From Gammaproteobacteria bacterium Ga0077554 (GTDB lineage: Bacteria > Pseudomonadota > Gammaproteobacteria > Ga0077554 > Ga007554), in NCBI GenBank assembly GCA_001464585.1, contig LNFF01000018.1, forward strand, positions 1-64,000: a stretch of 64,000 nt of DNA. The letters are read 5' to 3'. Positions within the stretch are counted from its first letter, which is position 1; the number at the start of each line of letters is the position of its first letter. The notes below the pieces were generated by a model that saw only the letters and a list, made by a program, of their open reading frames with translations, was not told the origin of the DNA and made no database searches. This document shows, one piece after another, positions 3,361-44,127 of this stretch. The translations under genes and the position numbers were made by a program.

Positions 3361-3412
3361 CTTGAGGAGTCTCCATGCAAGGGAAGAGGGCGTTACGCCG
3401 GAAAAGCCACAT

Positions 3413-3435
3413 AACATGCATATACAATACATGTT
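3413..3435. promoter_or_regulatory. NsrR-like operator 1
   Basis: A 23-bp palindrome with half sites AACATGCATAT and AATACATGTT. Compared with the NsrR consensus (AAGATGYATTT, N, and its complement) it differs mainly by a symmetric G-to-C change in each arm. It lies 53-75 bp upstream of the ncgA start and about 180 bp upstream of nsrR. Confidence 0.7.
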
Positions 3436-3438
3436 ATG

Positions 3439-3461
3439 AATAGGCATTGTCAATACATGTT
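3439..3461. promoter_or_regulatory. NsrR-like operator 2
   Basis: A second 23-bp site, spaced so that its centre is 26 bp from that of the first. Its right half (AATACATGTT) is identical to that of operator 1 and the left half is weaker (AATAGGCATTG). Tandem sites suggest cooperative binding and stronger NO-dependent derepression. Confidence 0.6.
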
Positions 3462-3613
3462 ATGTGGTTTTTTGCGATTTTTTTGTGCGGTTGGTCGCCA
3501 ACGGCTTTTTCTAGAATGAAATGACCATCGCAGATTGATGTGTAGCTATTCGTCAAATGAAGGGATAGAATTTTTACTTGAAGCCTTAGCCTGAGACGGG
3601 ATAAGCATCCATT

Positions 3614-28122: not shown

Positions 28123-28275
28123 CTAGAGGGCGCCTCTATAAATTCGATCAAGACACGAGGGCAAGGCGGAAATGTGCGAAAAAGCGCAGTGTACACGTAG
28201 TACATGAGCATTTTGAGCCCATTTCCAACGCCGCCATCGCATCGTGGCTTCAGCGGATTTATAGAGACGCCCTAG
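28123..28275. repeat. 153-bp palindromic repeat, copy A
   Basis: Imperfect terminal inverted repeats (CTAGAGGGCGCCTCTATAAA at 28123-28142; complement near 28256-28275) bound a core that matches copy B at 39979-40122: GATCAAG, GCAAGGCGGAAA, CGAAAAAGCG, GTGTACACG, AGTACATGAGCATTTTGAG, TTTCCAACGCCGC. An internal hairpin (GGCGGAAATGTGC / GCCCATTTCCAACGCC) differs from that of copy B in a compensatory way. The right end supplies the TAG stop of the GH15 gene. Confidence 0.8.
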
Positions 28276-38818: not shown

Positions 38819-39670
38819 TTGATATCCCACCGTATGTTACATAGAGCCTTCTTTTTTTTGGCGTTAGTGCCGTTAGCTTTAACGGCGTGCGGTACCGCAT
38901 CCGGGCCGCGGGGTGGGGCGGCAACAGACACCACACGCGATGGCGCACCTTCTCAAAAAGTAGATAGCGCCTCCATCCCCGACGCCGTACCCCGCAACGA
39001 ACCGCGCAGCAAATACGGGAACCCCGCAACCTATACAGTGGCGGGTAAAACCTATCGCACCCTGTCTGATAACGAAGGCTATCAGGAAAGCGGTATCGCC
39101 TCATGGTACGGCACCAAATTTCACGGCCGCCGCACCTCCAGCGGCGAACCCTATGACATGCACGGCATGACTGCCGCGCATAAAACCTTGCCGCTACCTA
39201 CCTATGCCGAAGTCACCAATCTGCAGAACGGGCGTAAAGTCACCGTCAAGATTAACGATCGTGGCCCCTTCCATGAAAACCGTTTGATTGACTTATCACA
39301 TGCCGCCGCCAGCAAGCTGGGTATTCTGGCGACTGGCACCGGGCTGGTAGAGGTTCGCGCCATCACACCCAAGTGTAGTGGGTGCAAGGATGCGGATACC
39401 CTTACTCCGCAACCCCAGAACCCTGTAAATGATGAAGCCCGTGCTGTGAAGTTGTATCTCCAGGTCGGTGCGTTTCGCAGCCGCGATAACGCCAAACGCC
39501 TGCGTGACCGCATTGATGAAGCCGCGCCCGAGGCGCTCAAGGTACAGGTTATCGAAGGGTCACTTTACCGGGTGCGGATTGGTCCGTTTGCCAGGGTGGA
39601 TGAGGTTGACCGTTTTGCCGGTAGCCTGGATAAATTAGGGGTTCAGAACACGCAGGTGATTATTGATTAA
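38819..39670 (+). CDS. rlpA: Septal/rare lipoprotein A with SPOR domain
   Basis: 283 residues from a TTG at 38819, eight bases after AAAGGA; the ATG at 38834 has no such site. Lipobox LTAC near residue 24, a double-psi beta-barrel with GIASWYGTKFHGRRTSSGEPYDM and NDRGPFHENRLIDLS (lytic-site Asp), and a C-terminal SPOR domain (YLQVGAFRSRDNAKRLRDRI). Outer-membrane lipoprotein acting on denuded glycan at the septum. Confidence 0.95.
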   Translation: MISHRMLHRAFFFLALVPLALTACGTASGPRGGAATDTTRDGAPSQKVDSASIPDAVPRNEPRSKYGNPATYTVAGKTYRTLSDNEGYQESGIASWYGTKFHGRRTSSGEPYDMHGMTAAHKTLPLPTYAEVTNLQNGRKVTVKINDRGPFHENRLIDLSHAAASKLGILATGTGLVEVRAITPKCSGCKDADTLTPQPQNPVNDEARAVKLYLQVGAFRSRDNAKRLRDRIDEAAPEALKVQVIEGSLYRVRIGPFARVDEVDRFAGSLDKLGVQNTQVIID

Positions 39671-39676
39671 CGGCTG

Positions 39677-39718
39677 AATGAACCAAAATGGCGCGATACC
39701 GCACCGTTTTGGTTCATT
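39677..39718 (+). terminator. Hairpin terminator after rlpA
   Basis: A perfect 12-bp stem (AATGAACCAAAA / TTTTGGTTCATT) starting six bases after the stop. It closes the mre-rlpA transcription unit before the guanidine module. Confidence 0.7.
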
Positions 39719-39954
39719 GATGTCTGGGTTTCTGGACTTTTTAGATATTTCAGGATTTCCTGTGAAGGCGATCCGGGTTTTTCCGCCACGCCCCCGCAAT
39801 AAAATTATCCAGATAAAACAACTGTAAAGAAATAATTTTTTATCGGGAAGGCCGTTCATCGGGGCGGTGGTTATACCCTGCTAGATGATTGGCATATCAG
39901 TTGCAGCAATAAATTTGAGAGGTTGATGGAGCCATCATATCCATTGATCTTGAT

Positions 39955-40240
39955 GACAACTAGGGTTCCGGTTTGCTAAGAACCTGTTTTAGAATCTCGA
40001 TCAAGGGATGCAGCGCAAGGCGGAAACGGACGAAAAAGCGGGGTGTACACGCAGTACATGAGCATTTTGAGTTCGTTTCCAACGCCGCGATGCACCCTTC
40101 AGCGAGATTCTAAACAGGTTATAAGGCAGATGCTGGTCCGAGGGTTGTCGGTCGGCTTGAGATAGATTCTATATCAGGCCGGATCCACGGCGGGACAAAA
40201 GCCCGGGAGAGCATTAGCCTCTCGCGTGCGTCTTTTGTTT
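39955..40240 (+). ncRNA. Guanidine-I (ykkC) riboswitch with a large insertion in a variable hairpin
   Basis: The conserved blocks appear in order: CTAGGGTTCCG (39960-39970), GGTCCGAGG (40135-40143), and ACGGCGGGACAAAAGCCCGG near 40187-40206 followed by GAGA. A 6-bp stem (TTTGCT 39972-39977 / GGCAGA 40125-40130) flanks the insertion, and a second stem (GTCGGCTTGA / TCAGGCCGGAT) lies before the last block. Downstream GAGAG/CTCTC and a T-rich tract with CTTTTGT, complementary to the conserved ACAAAAG, look like an expression platform. It leads into an ABC transporter and guanidine hydrolase genes. Repeat copy B fills the first hairpin tip. Confidence 0.88.
39979..40122. repeat. 144-bp palindromic repeat, copy B, inside the riboswitch
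   Basis: Terminal inverted repeats AACCTGTTTTAGAATCTCG (39981-39999) and CGAGATTCTAAACAGGTT (40103-40120) enclose the same core as copy A. The arms differ wholly in sequence from those of copy A, though each copy is self-complementary. It sits at the tip of a riboswitch stem, so its own hairpin would extend that stem. Confidence 0.82.
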
Positions 40241-40259
40241 AGCCTTGGAGGTTACCGCC

Positions 40260-41244
40260 ATGTGGTTTTCCGCGCTTAAAAAATTTTCCGCAGCAATTAT
40301 TCTGTGCAGTTTTTTCGGGGTTTCTTCCAGTGCTTTTTCCGCAGTCAAAATAGGTGTCAGCGACTGGCCGGGATGGGTGGCGTGGTATGTTGCCGAACAG
40401 CAGGGATTTTTCAAAAAATACGGCGCTGATGTAGAGTTGGTGTGGTTTCCGAATTACACCGATTCCATTCAAGCGCTTTCCGCAGGCAGGCTCGATGCCA
40501 ATTCACAAACATTGGGTGATAGCATGGCGCCCATGGCGGCGGGCATCCCCCTCAAGCTTGTTTTAATCAATGATAATTCCGCCGGTAACGATGCGTTGCT
40601 GGCGAAACCTGCCATTAACACCGTCAAGGATCTGAAAGGAAAAACCATCGCGCTGGAAGAGTTCAGCGTGTCGCATTTTGTATTGGTGGTGGCGCTGGCC
40701 AAACACGGCATGAGTCCGCGCGATGTCAAGATCGTCAACCTTACCGCCGGGGATGCCGCTGCTGCTTTTCTTTGCCGGGCGTGTCGATGCCTGCGTGGTA
40801 TGGAATCCCTGGATCAATAAGATTATCAGCAGCGGCAAGGGCAAGGCGCTGTTTACATCAAAAGAGATGCCGGGGCTGATTCCGGATGCGCTGGTGGCGC
40901 GTAGCGAGTCGATCAAGACCAAACGTCAGGATTTAATCGGCATGGTGCGCGCCTGGTACGACACGGAAAAATTCATACGTGAAAACCCTCAGGAAGCAGT
41001 GAAGATCATGTCCAAAGTGGTCGGGCTGAGTGCGGATGAATACACAGTGTTTCTGCCGGGGACACGCTTCTTTGGCCAAAAGGAAAATCTGCAAGCCTTT
41101 GATGCGGGCAACGCTGAGTCGTTGCTGAAAGTCGCGCCCACCATAGAAAAATTCTTGCGTGATCATAAGCTGCTGGAAGGTACGCTGGATGTCACGAAAG
41201 GCTTGGACGCGTCGCTGATAAAAGAAGTGGCTGGAATCAAGTAA
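40260..41244 (+). pseudogene. Guanidine-module ABC transporter binding protein (NitT/TauT type), frameshifted
   Basis: From the ATG at 40260 (GGAGG eight bases upstream) a signal peptide and SsuA/TauA-like domain run to DAAAAF, then the frame breaks; the correct continuation FFAGRVDACVVWNPWINK is in another frame. Removing one T from the run at 40766-40769 restores one continuous protein of about 327 residues ending VAGIK. The two parts are otherwise well conserved, so the lesion is recent, a sequencing error, or a slippage site. Periplasmic substrate capture, probably guanidine or a derivative, is inferred from the riboswitch. Confidence 0.8.
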
Positions 41245-41262: not shown

Positions 41263-42081
41263 ATGCCAGACACGCCACACAGTGCCGCGCCACGCCGTGC
41301 GCCGTTATGGGCGGTGCGCGGTGAAATGAGTCGCAAGACGCATGTGATATTTGCGGTGCTTGGATTCTGTGCGGTGTTGGTCGTGTGGTTTGGATTGGCG
41401 GAGAGTGGTTGGTTCAGCAAGGTATTTTTGCCTGCGCCGCAGGATGTGGCGCAACGATTTTACACCTGGCTGGCGGAAGATGACCTTCTCAAGGATGTGT
41501 CGATCAGCATTTATCGCGTGATGGGCGGCTTTATGCTGGCGGTGATCGTGGCATTGCCGCTGGGGTTGATGATTGGCACATTTCGACCAATCCAGGCATT
41601 TTTCGAACCGGTGATTGAGTTTGCGCGCTACTTGCCGGCAGTGGCTTTTGTGCCGCTGGTGATGCTATGGGTGGGAATCGATGAAGGTTCCAAGATTGCA
41701 ATTATCTGGATCGGCACTTTTTTTCAAATGGTGTTAATGATCTCGGAAGATGTGCGGCGGGTGCCCAAGGCGCAGATAGAAGCGGCACAAACCATGGGCG
41801 CCACACGCGAGGAAGTCATTACCAAGGTGATACTAAAATCTGCCATGCCCTCTATCATGGACAGTTTGCGCATCACCATGGGCTGGGCCTGGACTTATCT
41901 GGTGGTGGCAGAATTGGTCGCAGCAAATTCCGGTTTAGGTTATGCCATTTTGAAAGCACAACGCTTTTTGCAGACGGACAAGATTTTTGTCGGCATTCTT
42001 TTGATCGGATTAATTGGGCTGGTGATGGACCAGTTATTTAGATGGGTGCATCGGCGCCGTTTCCCCTGGTTACATGCTTAA
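41263..42081 (+). CDS. NitT/TauT-type ABC transporter permease
   Basis: 272 residues, about six membrane helices, with the coupling motif EAAQTMGATREEVITKVILKSAMPSIMDSLR. Similar to SsuC/TauC permeases. Starts 18 bp after the binding-protein gene and overlaps the ATPase gene by eight bases. Under the guanidine riboswitch. Confidence 0.88.
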   Translation: MPDTPHSAAPRRAPLWAVRGEMSRKTHVIFAVLGFCAVLVVWFGLAESGWFSKVFLPAPQDVAQRFYTWLAEDDLLKDVSISIYRVMGGFMLAVIVALPLGLMIGTFRPIQAFFEPVIEFARYLPAVAFVPLVMLWVGIDEGSKIAIIWIGTFFQMVLMISEDVRRVPKAQIEAAQTMGATREEVITKVILKSAMPSIMDSLRITMGWAWTYLVVAELVAANSGLGYAILKAQRFLQTDKIFVGILLIGLIGLVMDQLFRWVHRRRFPWLHA

Positions 42082-42937
42082 GCTTGAGATCAGGCAGGGA
42101 TCAAAAATTTTCCATGCAGGGAAAATCACGCTGCATGCGTTGCAGGATATAAATTTATCAATCCATGAAAATGAATTTGTAACGCTGGTGGGGGCGTCAG
42201 GGTGTGGCAAGTCGACGCTGTTGCGCATTATCGGTGGACTGGAAAATTTCACGGCCGGTGATGTTAGCGTTAATGCGGCGCCAGTGACTGGTCCAGGCCT
42301 GGATCGTGCCATGGTATTTCAGGATTATAGTGTGTATCCGTGGCTGACGGTGGCAGAAAACATCCGTTTTTGCCGTGAACTTAAAGCACACCAGCAGGAT
42401 AATAGTTTACGCGCCACCTATCATGCGATTGGCCGTGCTCATGCATTGCTGGAATTGATGGGGCTGGATAATGTCAAAAATGCCTATCCCAACCAGTTAT
42501 CGGGCGGTATGCGCCAGCGTGTGGCGATTGCCCGGGCGTTAATGCCCGCACCCGAAATATTGTTGATGGACGAACCGTTTGGCGCGCTGGATGCGCAGAC
42601 CCGCGAAGTGATGCATGGGTTGATATTACATCTCTTCACGCAGGAGCGTAGCACCATTGTGTTTGTTACGCATGATGTGGAAGAGGCCATTTATCTGGCC
42701 AATCGTGTTGTGGTTATGGCTCCGCAGCCGGGGCGTATCGACAGCATTTACAACGTGCCCTTACCGCCCGCCGGGCAGCGTCATCTTGACATGAAACTTG
42801 CGCCGGAATTTTTATCGCTAAAGAAAGAGATATTGCAGCGCATTCGCGCCACAGCACGGGTTCATACAGATGCGGGCCTGTTGGATAAATTAACCAAACA
42901 GCATCACCACGACAATGAAGAGGGCCGTTCGTTATGA
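42074..42937 (+). CDS. NitT/TauT-type ABC transporter ATPase
   Basis: 287 residues: Walker A GASGCGKSTLLR, Q-loop VFQDYSVYPWLT, signature LSGGMRQRVAIARAL, Walker B LLMDEPFGALD, switch His in FVTHDVEEA. Energises the permease at 41263-42081. Its stop overlaps the hydrolase start (ATGA). Confidence 0.9.
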   Translation: MLKLEIRQGSKIFHAGKITLHALQDINLSIHENEFVTLVGASGCGKSTLLRIIGGLENFTAGDVSVNAAPVTGPGLDRAMVFQDYSVYPWLTVAENIRFCRELKAHQQDNSLRATYHAIGRAHALLELMGLDNVKNAYPNQLSGGMRQRVAIARALMPAPEILLMDEPFGALDAQTREVMHGLILHLFTQERSTIVFVTHDVEEAIYLANRVVVMAPQPGRIDSIYNVPLPPAGQRHLDMKLAPEFLSLKKEILQRIRATARVHTDAGLLDKLTKQHHHDNEEGRSL

Positions 42938-44127
42938 AATTACATAGACACCGAAATATCAAAGCTTCCGTATTCAACCAGACGCGGCGCCATCATCATC
43001 CCTCGTTTGACAAAACCCAGTTGCAGGGTTGGAAAATGATGCACAAGGAAGCCGAACTGCCGCATGACAAATGGGATGAAGAAGAGAAGCGTTGCCTTGA
43101 ATTAGGGCTACAGGGTGCGGATAGCATCCAGGATAAATCCATCCCCACGTTTGCGCGTGGCGAGTTGCCACACTTTGCGGGCATCAACACTTTCATGAAA
43201 GCGCCGTATATTGAAGATGTGAGAAAAGTGGGCACCTATGATGTGGCGGTGATGGGCGTGCCTTTTGATGGTGGCACGACGTATCGTCCCGGCACGCGCT
43301 TTGGGCCGCAAGGCATACGCCGCATCTCGGCGCTCTATACACCTTATAATTATGAAATTGGCTGTGACCTGCGTGAGCAGATGAGCATGTGCGATATCGG
43401 CGATGTGTTTACCATTCCCGCCAATCTTGAAAAAACCTTTGACCAGATTTCCAAAGCCACCGCGCATGTATTTGCCAGCGGCGCCATGCCGGTGATTCTG
43501 GGCGGTGACCATTCCATCGGTTTTCCTACACTGCGCGGCATTGCCAGCCAGACCGACAAGAAGATCGGTATAGTGCATTTTGACCGCCACGCCGACATTC
43601 AGGAAAAAGACCTGGATGAGCGCATGCACACTACGCCGTGGTTTCACGCCACTAATCTGCCGAATGTGCCAGCCACCAATCTGGTGCAGGTGGGCATTGG
43701 TGGCTGGCAGGTGCCGCGTCAGGCGGTGAAGGAAGCACGCAAGCGCAACACCACCATCATTACCATGAATGATGTAGAACGACTGGGGCTGGACAAGGTT
43801 GCGGAAATCGCGCTTGAAATCGCCTGGAAAGATGCGGATGCCGTATATCTGAGTTTTGATATTGACTGCGTTGACGCAGGTTTTGTGCCCGGCACGGGTT
43901 GGCCGGAACCGGGTGGATTTTTACCGCGCGAGATTCTTTATTTGCTGCAACTGGTGGCTCGGGAAGGGCTGTGCGGCATGGAAGTAGTGGAAGTATCGCC
44001 GCCGTATGATGTGTCTGACATTACCTCGTTGATGGCGACCCGGGCCATTGTTGATGTGCTGGGCACTATCGTCGCACACGGCAAGATGGGATCGCATCGA
44101 CACATGATTCGTGGCTGGGGCGGCTGA
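42934..44127 (+). CDS. gdmH: Guanidine hydrolase (GdmH-type ureohydrolase)
   Basis: 397 residues, longer at the N-terminus than agmatinases. Metal-binding motifs: GGDHS, FDRHAD (agmatinases have DAH here) and SFDIDCVDAGFVPGTGWPEP. The stretch HFDRHADIQEKDLDERMHTT closely resembles the Synechocystis Sll1077 type, a nickel-dependent enzyme splitting guanidine to urea and ammonia. The guanidine-I riboswitch and transporter upstream support this over agmatinase. The nickel-insertion genes (hypA/hypB-like) found next to some homologues are not in the window. Translationally coupled to the ATPase. Confidence 0.87.
   Translation: MKLHRHRNIKASVFNQTRRHHHPSFDKTQLQGWKMMHKEAELPHDKWDEEEKRCLELGLQGADSIQDKSIPTFARGELPHFAGINTFMKAPYIEDVRKVGTYDVAVMGVPFDGGTTYRPGTRFGPQGIRRISALYTPYNYEIGCDLREQMSMCDIGDVFTIPANLEKTFDQISKATAHVFASGAMPVILGGDHSIGFPTLRGIASQTDKKIGIVHFDRHADIQEKDLDERMHTTPWFHATNLPNVPATNLVQVGIGGWQVPRQAVKEARKRNTTIITMNDVERLGLDKVAEIALEIAWKDADAVYLSFDIDCVDAGFVPGTGWPEPGGFLPREILYLLQLVAREGLCGMEVVEVSPPYDVSDITSLMATRAIVDVLGTIVAHGKMGSHRHMIRGWGG

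Follow-up and report, generated by a model that had tools for sequence, protein, structure and literature searches.

A candidate guanidine-I riboswitch with a palindromic mobile element in the tip of its P1b helix

RNA genes that contain palindromic elements are known from Rickettsia, and cyanobacterial RNase P RNA provides further examples. Mobile repeats and riboswitches also meet in the pneumococcal trp operon, where a BOX element lies between two T-box riboswitches and is reported to be co-transcribed with them, apparently leaving a functional leader (PMC3049150); a review of MITEs treats riboswitch roles for such elements as speculation only (PMC10969869). Guanidine-I riboswitches permit transcription only when guanidine is present, and their location near guanidinase genes is known (PMC11410670). 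In the open-access literature we found no report of a riboswitch with a mobile element inside an aptamer helix, the BOX/T-box arrangement being the nearest case. The locus described here lies in the window, a 64,000-nucleotide stretch analyzed as a whole (contig LNFF01000018.1 of Gammaproteobacteria bacterium Ga0077554). An initial annotation had read one leader in it as a guanidine-I (ykkC) riboswitch carrying a mobile-type palindrome in a variable hairpin, and this sequence observation is right in every main point.

Riboswitch leader and guanidine operon

Window positions 39955–40240 correspond to a guanidine-I riboswitch (ykkC, RF00442) ahead of an ABC-transporter/guanidine-hydrolase operon. 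The features of the leader and operon are listed below with the evidence for each; G001 is a relative of the same genus that carries the orthologous operon.

39955–39961, + strand: P1a 5' strand GACAACT, pairing with 40143–40149 (fold; pairs the same in G001)
39960–39970, + strand: conserved block CTAGGGTTCCG, invariant in 23 of 23 aligned guanidine-I RNAs
39964–39976, + strand: P1b 5' strand, pairing with 40126–40139 around the insert (fold)
40126–40139, + strand: P1b 3' strand (fold)
40135–40143, + strand: conserved block GGTCCGAGG (alignment)
40143–40149, + strand: P1a 3' strand GGTTGTC (fold)
40152–40182, + strand: P2 hairpin (fold; two compensatory double changes relative to G001)
40187–40206, + strand: P3 and conserved 3' block ACGGCGGGACAAAAGCCCGG (Rfam match, alignment)
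40195–40240, + strand: predicted terminator hairpin ACAAAAG...CTTTTGT followed by TTT, overlapping P3; expression platform (folds; identical in G001)
40247–40251, + strand: Shine-Dalgarno GGAGG ahead of the ATG at 40260 (sequence)
40260–41241, + strand: NMT1/SsuA-like ABC substrate-binding protein gene, frameshifted (domain match; intact 332-aa ortholog in G001)
41263–42081, + strand: ABC transporter permease (PF00528)
42074–42937, + strand: ABC transporter ATPase (PF00005)
42934–44127, + strand: Ni-dependent-type guanidine hydrolase, GdmH/Sll1077-like (PF00491, structure matches)

The whole window gives zero Rfam matches at the curated threshold. A permissive search placed Guanidine-I at 40111–40211 with the insert in place (38.2 bits, E 1.9e-5, gathering threshold 63); this match covers the 3' part alone, with the end of the insert substituted for the 5' half. 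Covariance scoring, the kind of check proposed in the initial annotation, places the natural RNA below threshold and its insert-free ortholog in G001, a riboswitch of 118 nt, at 87 bits. In a profile of natural riboswitches from which this genus was left out, the window sequence scores 66.6 bits once the insert is excised, as against 65.4 bits for the G001 relative, and the natural sequence splits into two separate matches of 47.1 and 11.7 bits. Permissive Rfam matches within or close to the insert, to sX9 (E 0.79) and to a Tetrahymena snoRNA (E 7.8), were treated as chance.

The three ykkC blocks reported earlier are all present, at 39960–39970, 40135–40143, and 40187–40206, and in an alignment of 23 guanidine-I RNAs the excised sequence matches 44 of the 44 invariant columns. 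Covariation in P1a, P1b, P2, and P3 lies well above both shuffles and slid controls, with 88% of cells paired and a score of 0.375 versus 0.125 in shuffles. The fold of the region is also much more stable than that of shuffled sequences (z -9.6). The interrupted riboswitch is not a product of chance, given this z score, the E-value of the RF00442 match, about 40 genomic copies of the inserted repeat, and a same-genus ortholog that lacks it. Sequence comparison thereby supports the reading of the leader as a guanidine-I riboswitch, and the initial annotation had its identity right.

Genes for guanidine transport and degradation, an ABC importer and a hydrolase, lie directly downstream. The permease, ATPase, and hydrolase are intact and 91–99% identical to their G001 counterparts. 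The hydrolase scores 571 bits against the Synechocystis enzyme structure (7esr/7oi1) and 566 bits against PDB 9fek, both far better matches than any agmatinase; 9fek was deposited as putative agmatinase 2, and we take it to be the N. inopinata guanidinase. In the substrate-binding protein gene, one extra T near 40773, within a short T-rich run (40765–40780), splits the gene between two reading frames. Since both halves are 95–97% identical to the intact G001 protein, the frameshift is either very recent or a sequencing error.

The predicted terminator borrows P3 sequence and ends in T residues, the arrangement that would be expected of an ON switch of this class; a simple terminator scan did not pick out the hairpin at 40195–40240. 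From P3 through the Shine-Dalgarno sequence, the window and G001 are identical, whereas the operon genes differ by 16–31% at four-fold degenerate sites. Six of the 28 aptamer pairs differ between the two, and all six still pair, two of them by double change. Judged from this comparison, the compensated pairs and the unchanged stretch show that the RNA has been under selection since the two lineages diverged, an interval in which the insertion itself is not dated. Upstream of the leader, 39670–39949 is unlike G001 beyond roughly the last 60 bases and the upstream genes differ; going by sequence, the G001 operon occupies another genomic context.

The inserted element

The insert has three parts.

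39977–39979, + strand: left target-site duplication TAA (copies lined up with flanks; fold and pair list)
39980–40121, + strand: palindromic MITE, 142 bp, GAACCTGTTTTAGAATCTCG...CGAGATTCTAAACAGGTTA, in the P1b apical loop (copy family, ends, duplications, related IS)
40122–40124, + strand: right target-site duplication TAA (copies lined up with flanks; fold and pair list)

The inserted total of 145 bp, which separates CTAGGGTTCCG from GGTCCGAGG, is the 142-bp element plus one 3-bp target-site duplication, and the earlier boundaries of 39979–40122 fall within 1–2 bases of the element. The repeat had been described as lying between pairing arms, as it does: UUGC (39973–39976) pairs with GCAG (40126–40129), with more P1b pairs below. 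It had also been called a mobile-type palindrome in a variable hairpin, which agrees with its position in the P1b tip, its multicopy family, its inverted ends, and its TAA duplication.

The family numbers about 40 copies in its own genome and is present in 8 of 8 genomes of the order; the other seven hold it in 22 to at least 40 places each among the matches listed, two of them in at least 40. Across the class, 77 of 369 sampled genomes contain matches to the repeat, mostly to its core. Its ends and duplications were defined on 51 copies lined up with their flanks. The element starts with GAACC (or GAGCC, GAAAC) and finishes with the complement, and in 39 of the 51 copies 3-bp TNA duplications are identical on both sides, being TTA, TAA, or TCA and mostly TTA or TAA. 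The IS1031 group of IS5 typically makes such 3-bp TNA duplications. The same genome contains, at G000:C5, an 865-bp IS bounded by perfect 21-bp ends (GAACCTATTCAATATCTTTTT) and a TAA duplication; it contains DUF4096 (IS4/5-type) transposase reading frames, with the transposase in two pieces, and we place this IS, presumptively, in the IS1031 subgroup. By its inverted ends, its 3-bp TNA duplications, and the related IS in the same genome, the repeat is classed as an IS5-type MITE. The site is filled in the window and empty in the same-genus ortholog, which points to mobility, and the empty site proposed earlier as a check was found in the orthologous operon of G001. The window copy differs by 4% from its nearest paralog; in its ends, a terminal C is replaced by A, and one of them contains an extra T.

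Other repeats were observed alongside this copy. The copies of the same genome numbered L002–L030 have a common core of ~107 bp with several different inverted ends (GAACCTG.., GGGTGCCTC.., TTCTACTGTG..), as if several transposases had adopted one core. A second, diverged copy of the family lies in the window at 28144–28259 (81% identical, different ends), and an inverted repeat at 3402–3472 has 34-nt arms that are 3 nt apart and 79% complementary.

Folding around the insert and alternative explanations

In thermodynamic folding, which ignores tertiary contacts and co-transcriptional kinetics, 37 of 37 pairs of the empty-site minimum-energy fold are retained when the natural RNA is folded, and the 18 P1 pairs have a mean pairing probability of 0.911 with and without the insert. 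Replacing the insert with 200 dinucleotide-shuffled versions lowers mean P1 pairing to 0.47, and none of the 200 reaches 0.911. Since P1 pairing is kept with the palindrome and lowered with the shuffles, the palindrome is what spares the aptamer in silico. The insert forms a hairpin of its own, at -72.5 kcal/mol. When transcripts of increasing length are folded, the 5' strand is at first partly paired with the unfinished repeat; it is free of the repeat once position 40121 has been made and is paired with its proper partner on reaching 40150. The earlier claim that the repeat would lengthen the stem without breaking the fold is therefore upheld in silico by the folding with and without the insert that it had called for, and an extended P1b stem on an intact aptamer fold is well supported by these predictions.

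We propose that the P1b apical loop offered a TAA target into which a 142-bp IS5-type MITE transposed. In the RNA, the palindromic element would form a long hairpin of its own that stacks on P1b; as the element folds on itself, P1a, P1b, P2, and P3 would still form, and the model retains every conserved aptamer nucleotide. Without guanidine, the terminator that uses P3 sequence would form; with guanidine, the aptamer and its P3 would hold the terminator off, and the importer/guanidine-hydrolase operon would be transcribed. From the biology of class I and the conserved platform, the natural switch is most likely still functional, acting as an ON switch by transcription attenuation, and the insert is seen most simply as a passenger that is tolerated and not as a part under selection. 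We hold this explanation as a whole, from the MITE in the P1b tip to the tolerated passenger, with good confidence.

An insertion of this size could instead have damaged the switch, through slow or wrong folding or through cleavage of the long hairpin, so that the operon is mis-regulated and the locus is beginning to decay. No other surveyed riboswitch tolerates such a large insert, the 5' strand is partly paired with the repeat in partial transcripts until the repeat is complete, and aptamer conservation that carries no date relative to the insertion leaves room for a recent loss of function. The one-base frameshift in the first operon gene of the assembly is a possible decay signal, but its place in a short T-rich run with nearly identical flanks marks it as very recent or an error. 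The aptamer has kept all of its pairs and conserved nucleotides, the other three operon genes are intact, and we regard damage as rather unlikely. The initial annotation leaned the opposite way and called the repeat domesticated; the long hairpin would then be a functional addition, for example an entry point for RNase III or a pause that buys time for the aptamer. Its great stability fits this idea, as does its position, transcribed between the two halves of the aptamer, and an unrelated genome has a different palindrome at this tip (L037, below). The claim is not supported, however, in view of a single copy with no insert-bearing ortholog, the absence of any sign of selection on the insert beyond that on the whole family, and end changes (the C to A and the extra T) that look like drift. 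A tolerated insertion explains everything seen, and we consider domestication very unlikely.

The position of the insert could also reflect a rule rather than chance, with the element family targeting the tips of RNA hairpins. A few copies do lie between inverted repeats (e.g., L163, L121, L141, and L004), yet stems at the 51 insertion sites are no longer than those at other TWA sites (Mann-Whitney p 0.91 for all sites, 0.84 for intergenic ones), a 31-site test gave no stem enrichment (p 0.26), and none of 20 other family insertions checked by Rfam lies in a known RNA family. Targeting is highly improbable on these figures; the simplest account, which we prefer, is that the element landed at a TAA by chance and was then tolerated. 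There is next to no likelihood that a collapsed repeat joined two loci wrongly in the assembly. The genome is a draft of 44 contigs and the repeat is multicopy, but both flanks match a single G001 locus in order, the TAA duplication is present on both sides, and the repeat is only 142 bp long and 4% off its nearest paralog. A tolerated MITE in the P1b tip of a most likely working switch remains our preferred reading.

Comparison with other guanidine-I RNAs and known systems

The survey comprised 87 distinct guanidine-I RNAs, collected through conserved patterns, chiefly from Pseudomonadota and not as a census. The distance from CTAGGGTTCCG to GGTCCGAGG is 24–56 nt in 85 of them, 71 nt in one, and 175 nt here. 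The 71-nt case (L037:5791-5932, from the MAG Gammaproteobacteria SJ336) carries the palindrome GGGGACAGATTTAAATCTGTCCCC in the same P1b tip. That palindrome occurs in 12 places of its genome with at most 3 mismatches, as against 0 for a backwards control; being multicopy and of a different family, it is a second, unrelated mobile-type palindrome at the same tip. The two riboswitches are alike in holding a multicopy palindrome there and differ in that the L037 insert is only ~25 nt, belongs to the other repeat family, and leaves the RNA above the Rfam threshold, at 81.4 bits. It is conceivable, although we think it quite unlikely, that mobile palindromes repeatedly find a safe harbor in the P1b tip of guanidine-I aptamers and that their hairpins alter the switch, for instance through pausing or RNase III processing; were this so, mobile DNA would supply riboswitches with new parts.

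The locus amounts to a natural insertion experiment in a riboswitch aptamer with a matched insert-free ortholog, and it allows a direct test of how well a large peripheral hairpin is tolerated. Because predicted pairing in the aptamer stem drops by half when a shuffle that preserves size and dinucleotides replaces the insert, palindromic mobile elements can apparently harm a structured RNA less than arbitrary DNA would. A riboswitch that a mobile element interrupts can fall below the Rfam threshold and be missed, and the number of such cases is therefore probably underestimated.

Compared with IS5-type MITEs, the element has the same ends starting GAACC or GAGCC, 3-bp TNA duplications, many copies, and a related IS in the genome; it differs in that the window copy and the one IS found do not have identical end subtypes, and in that the conserved core of the family is common to copies with several different ends. 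The leader shares with RF00442 riboswitches the conserved blocks, P1a, P1b, P2, and P3, the terminator overlapping P3, and the guanidine transporter and hydrolase genes downstream, whereas its P1b tip holds a 142-bp mobile element and 175 nt separate its blocks. Like the pneumococcal BOX/T-box leader, it is a case of a mobile repeat within a riboswitch leader that still seems functional; the BOX repeat lies between two complete riboswitches, whereas the MITE described here lies inside one helix of a single aptamer.
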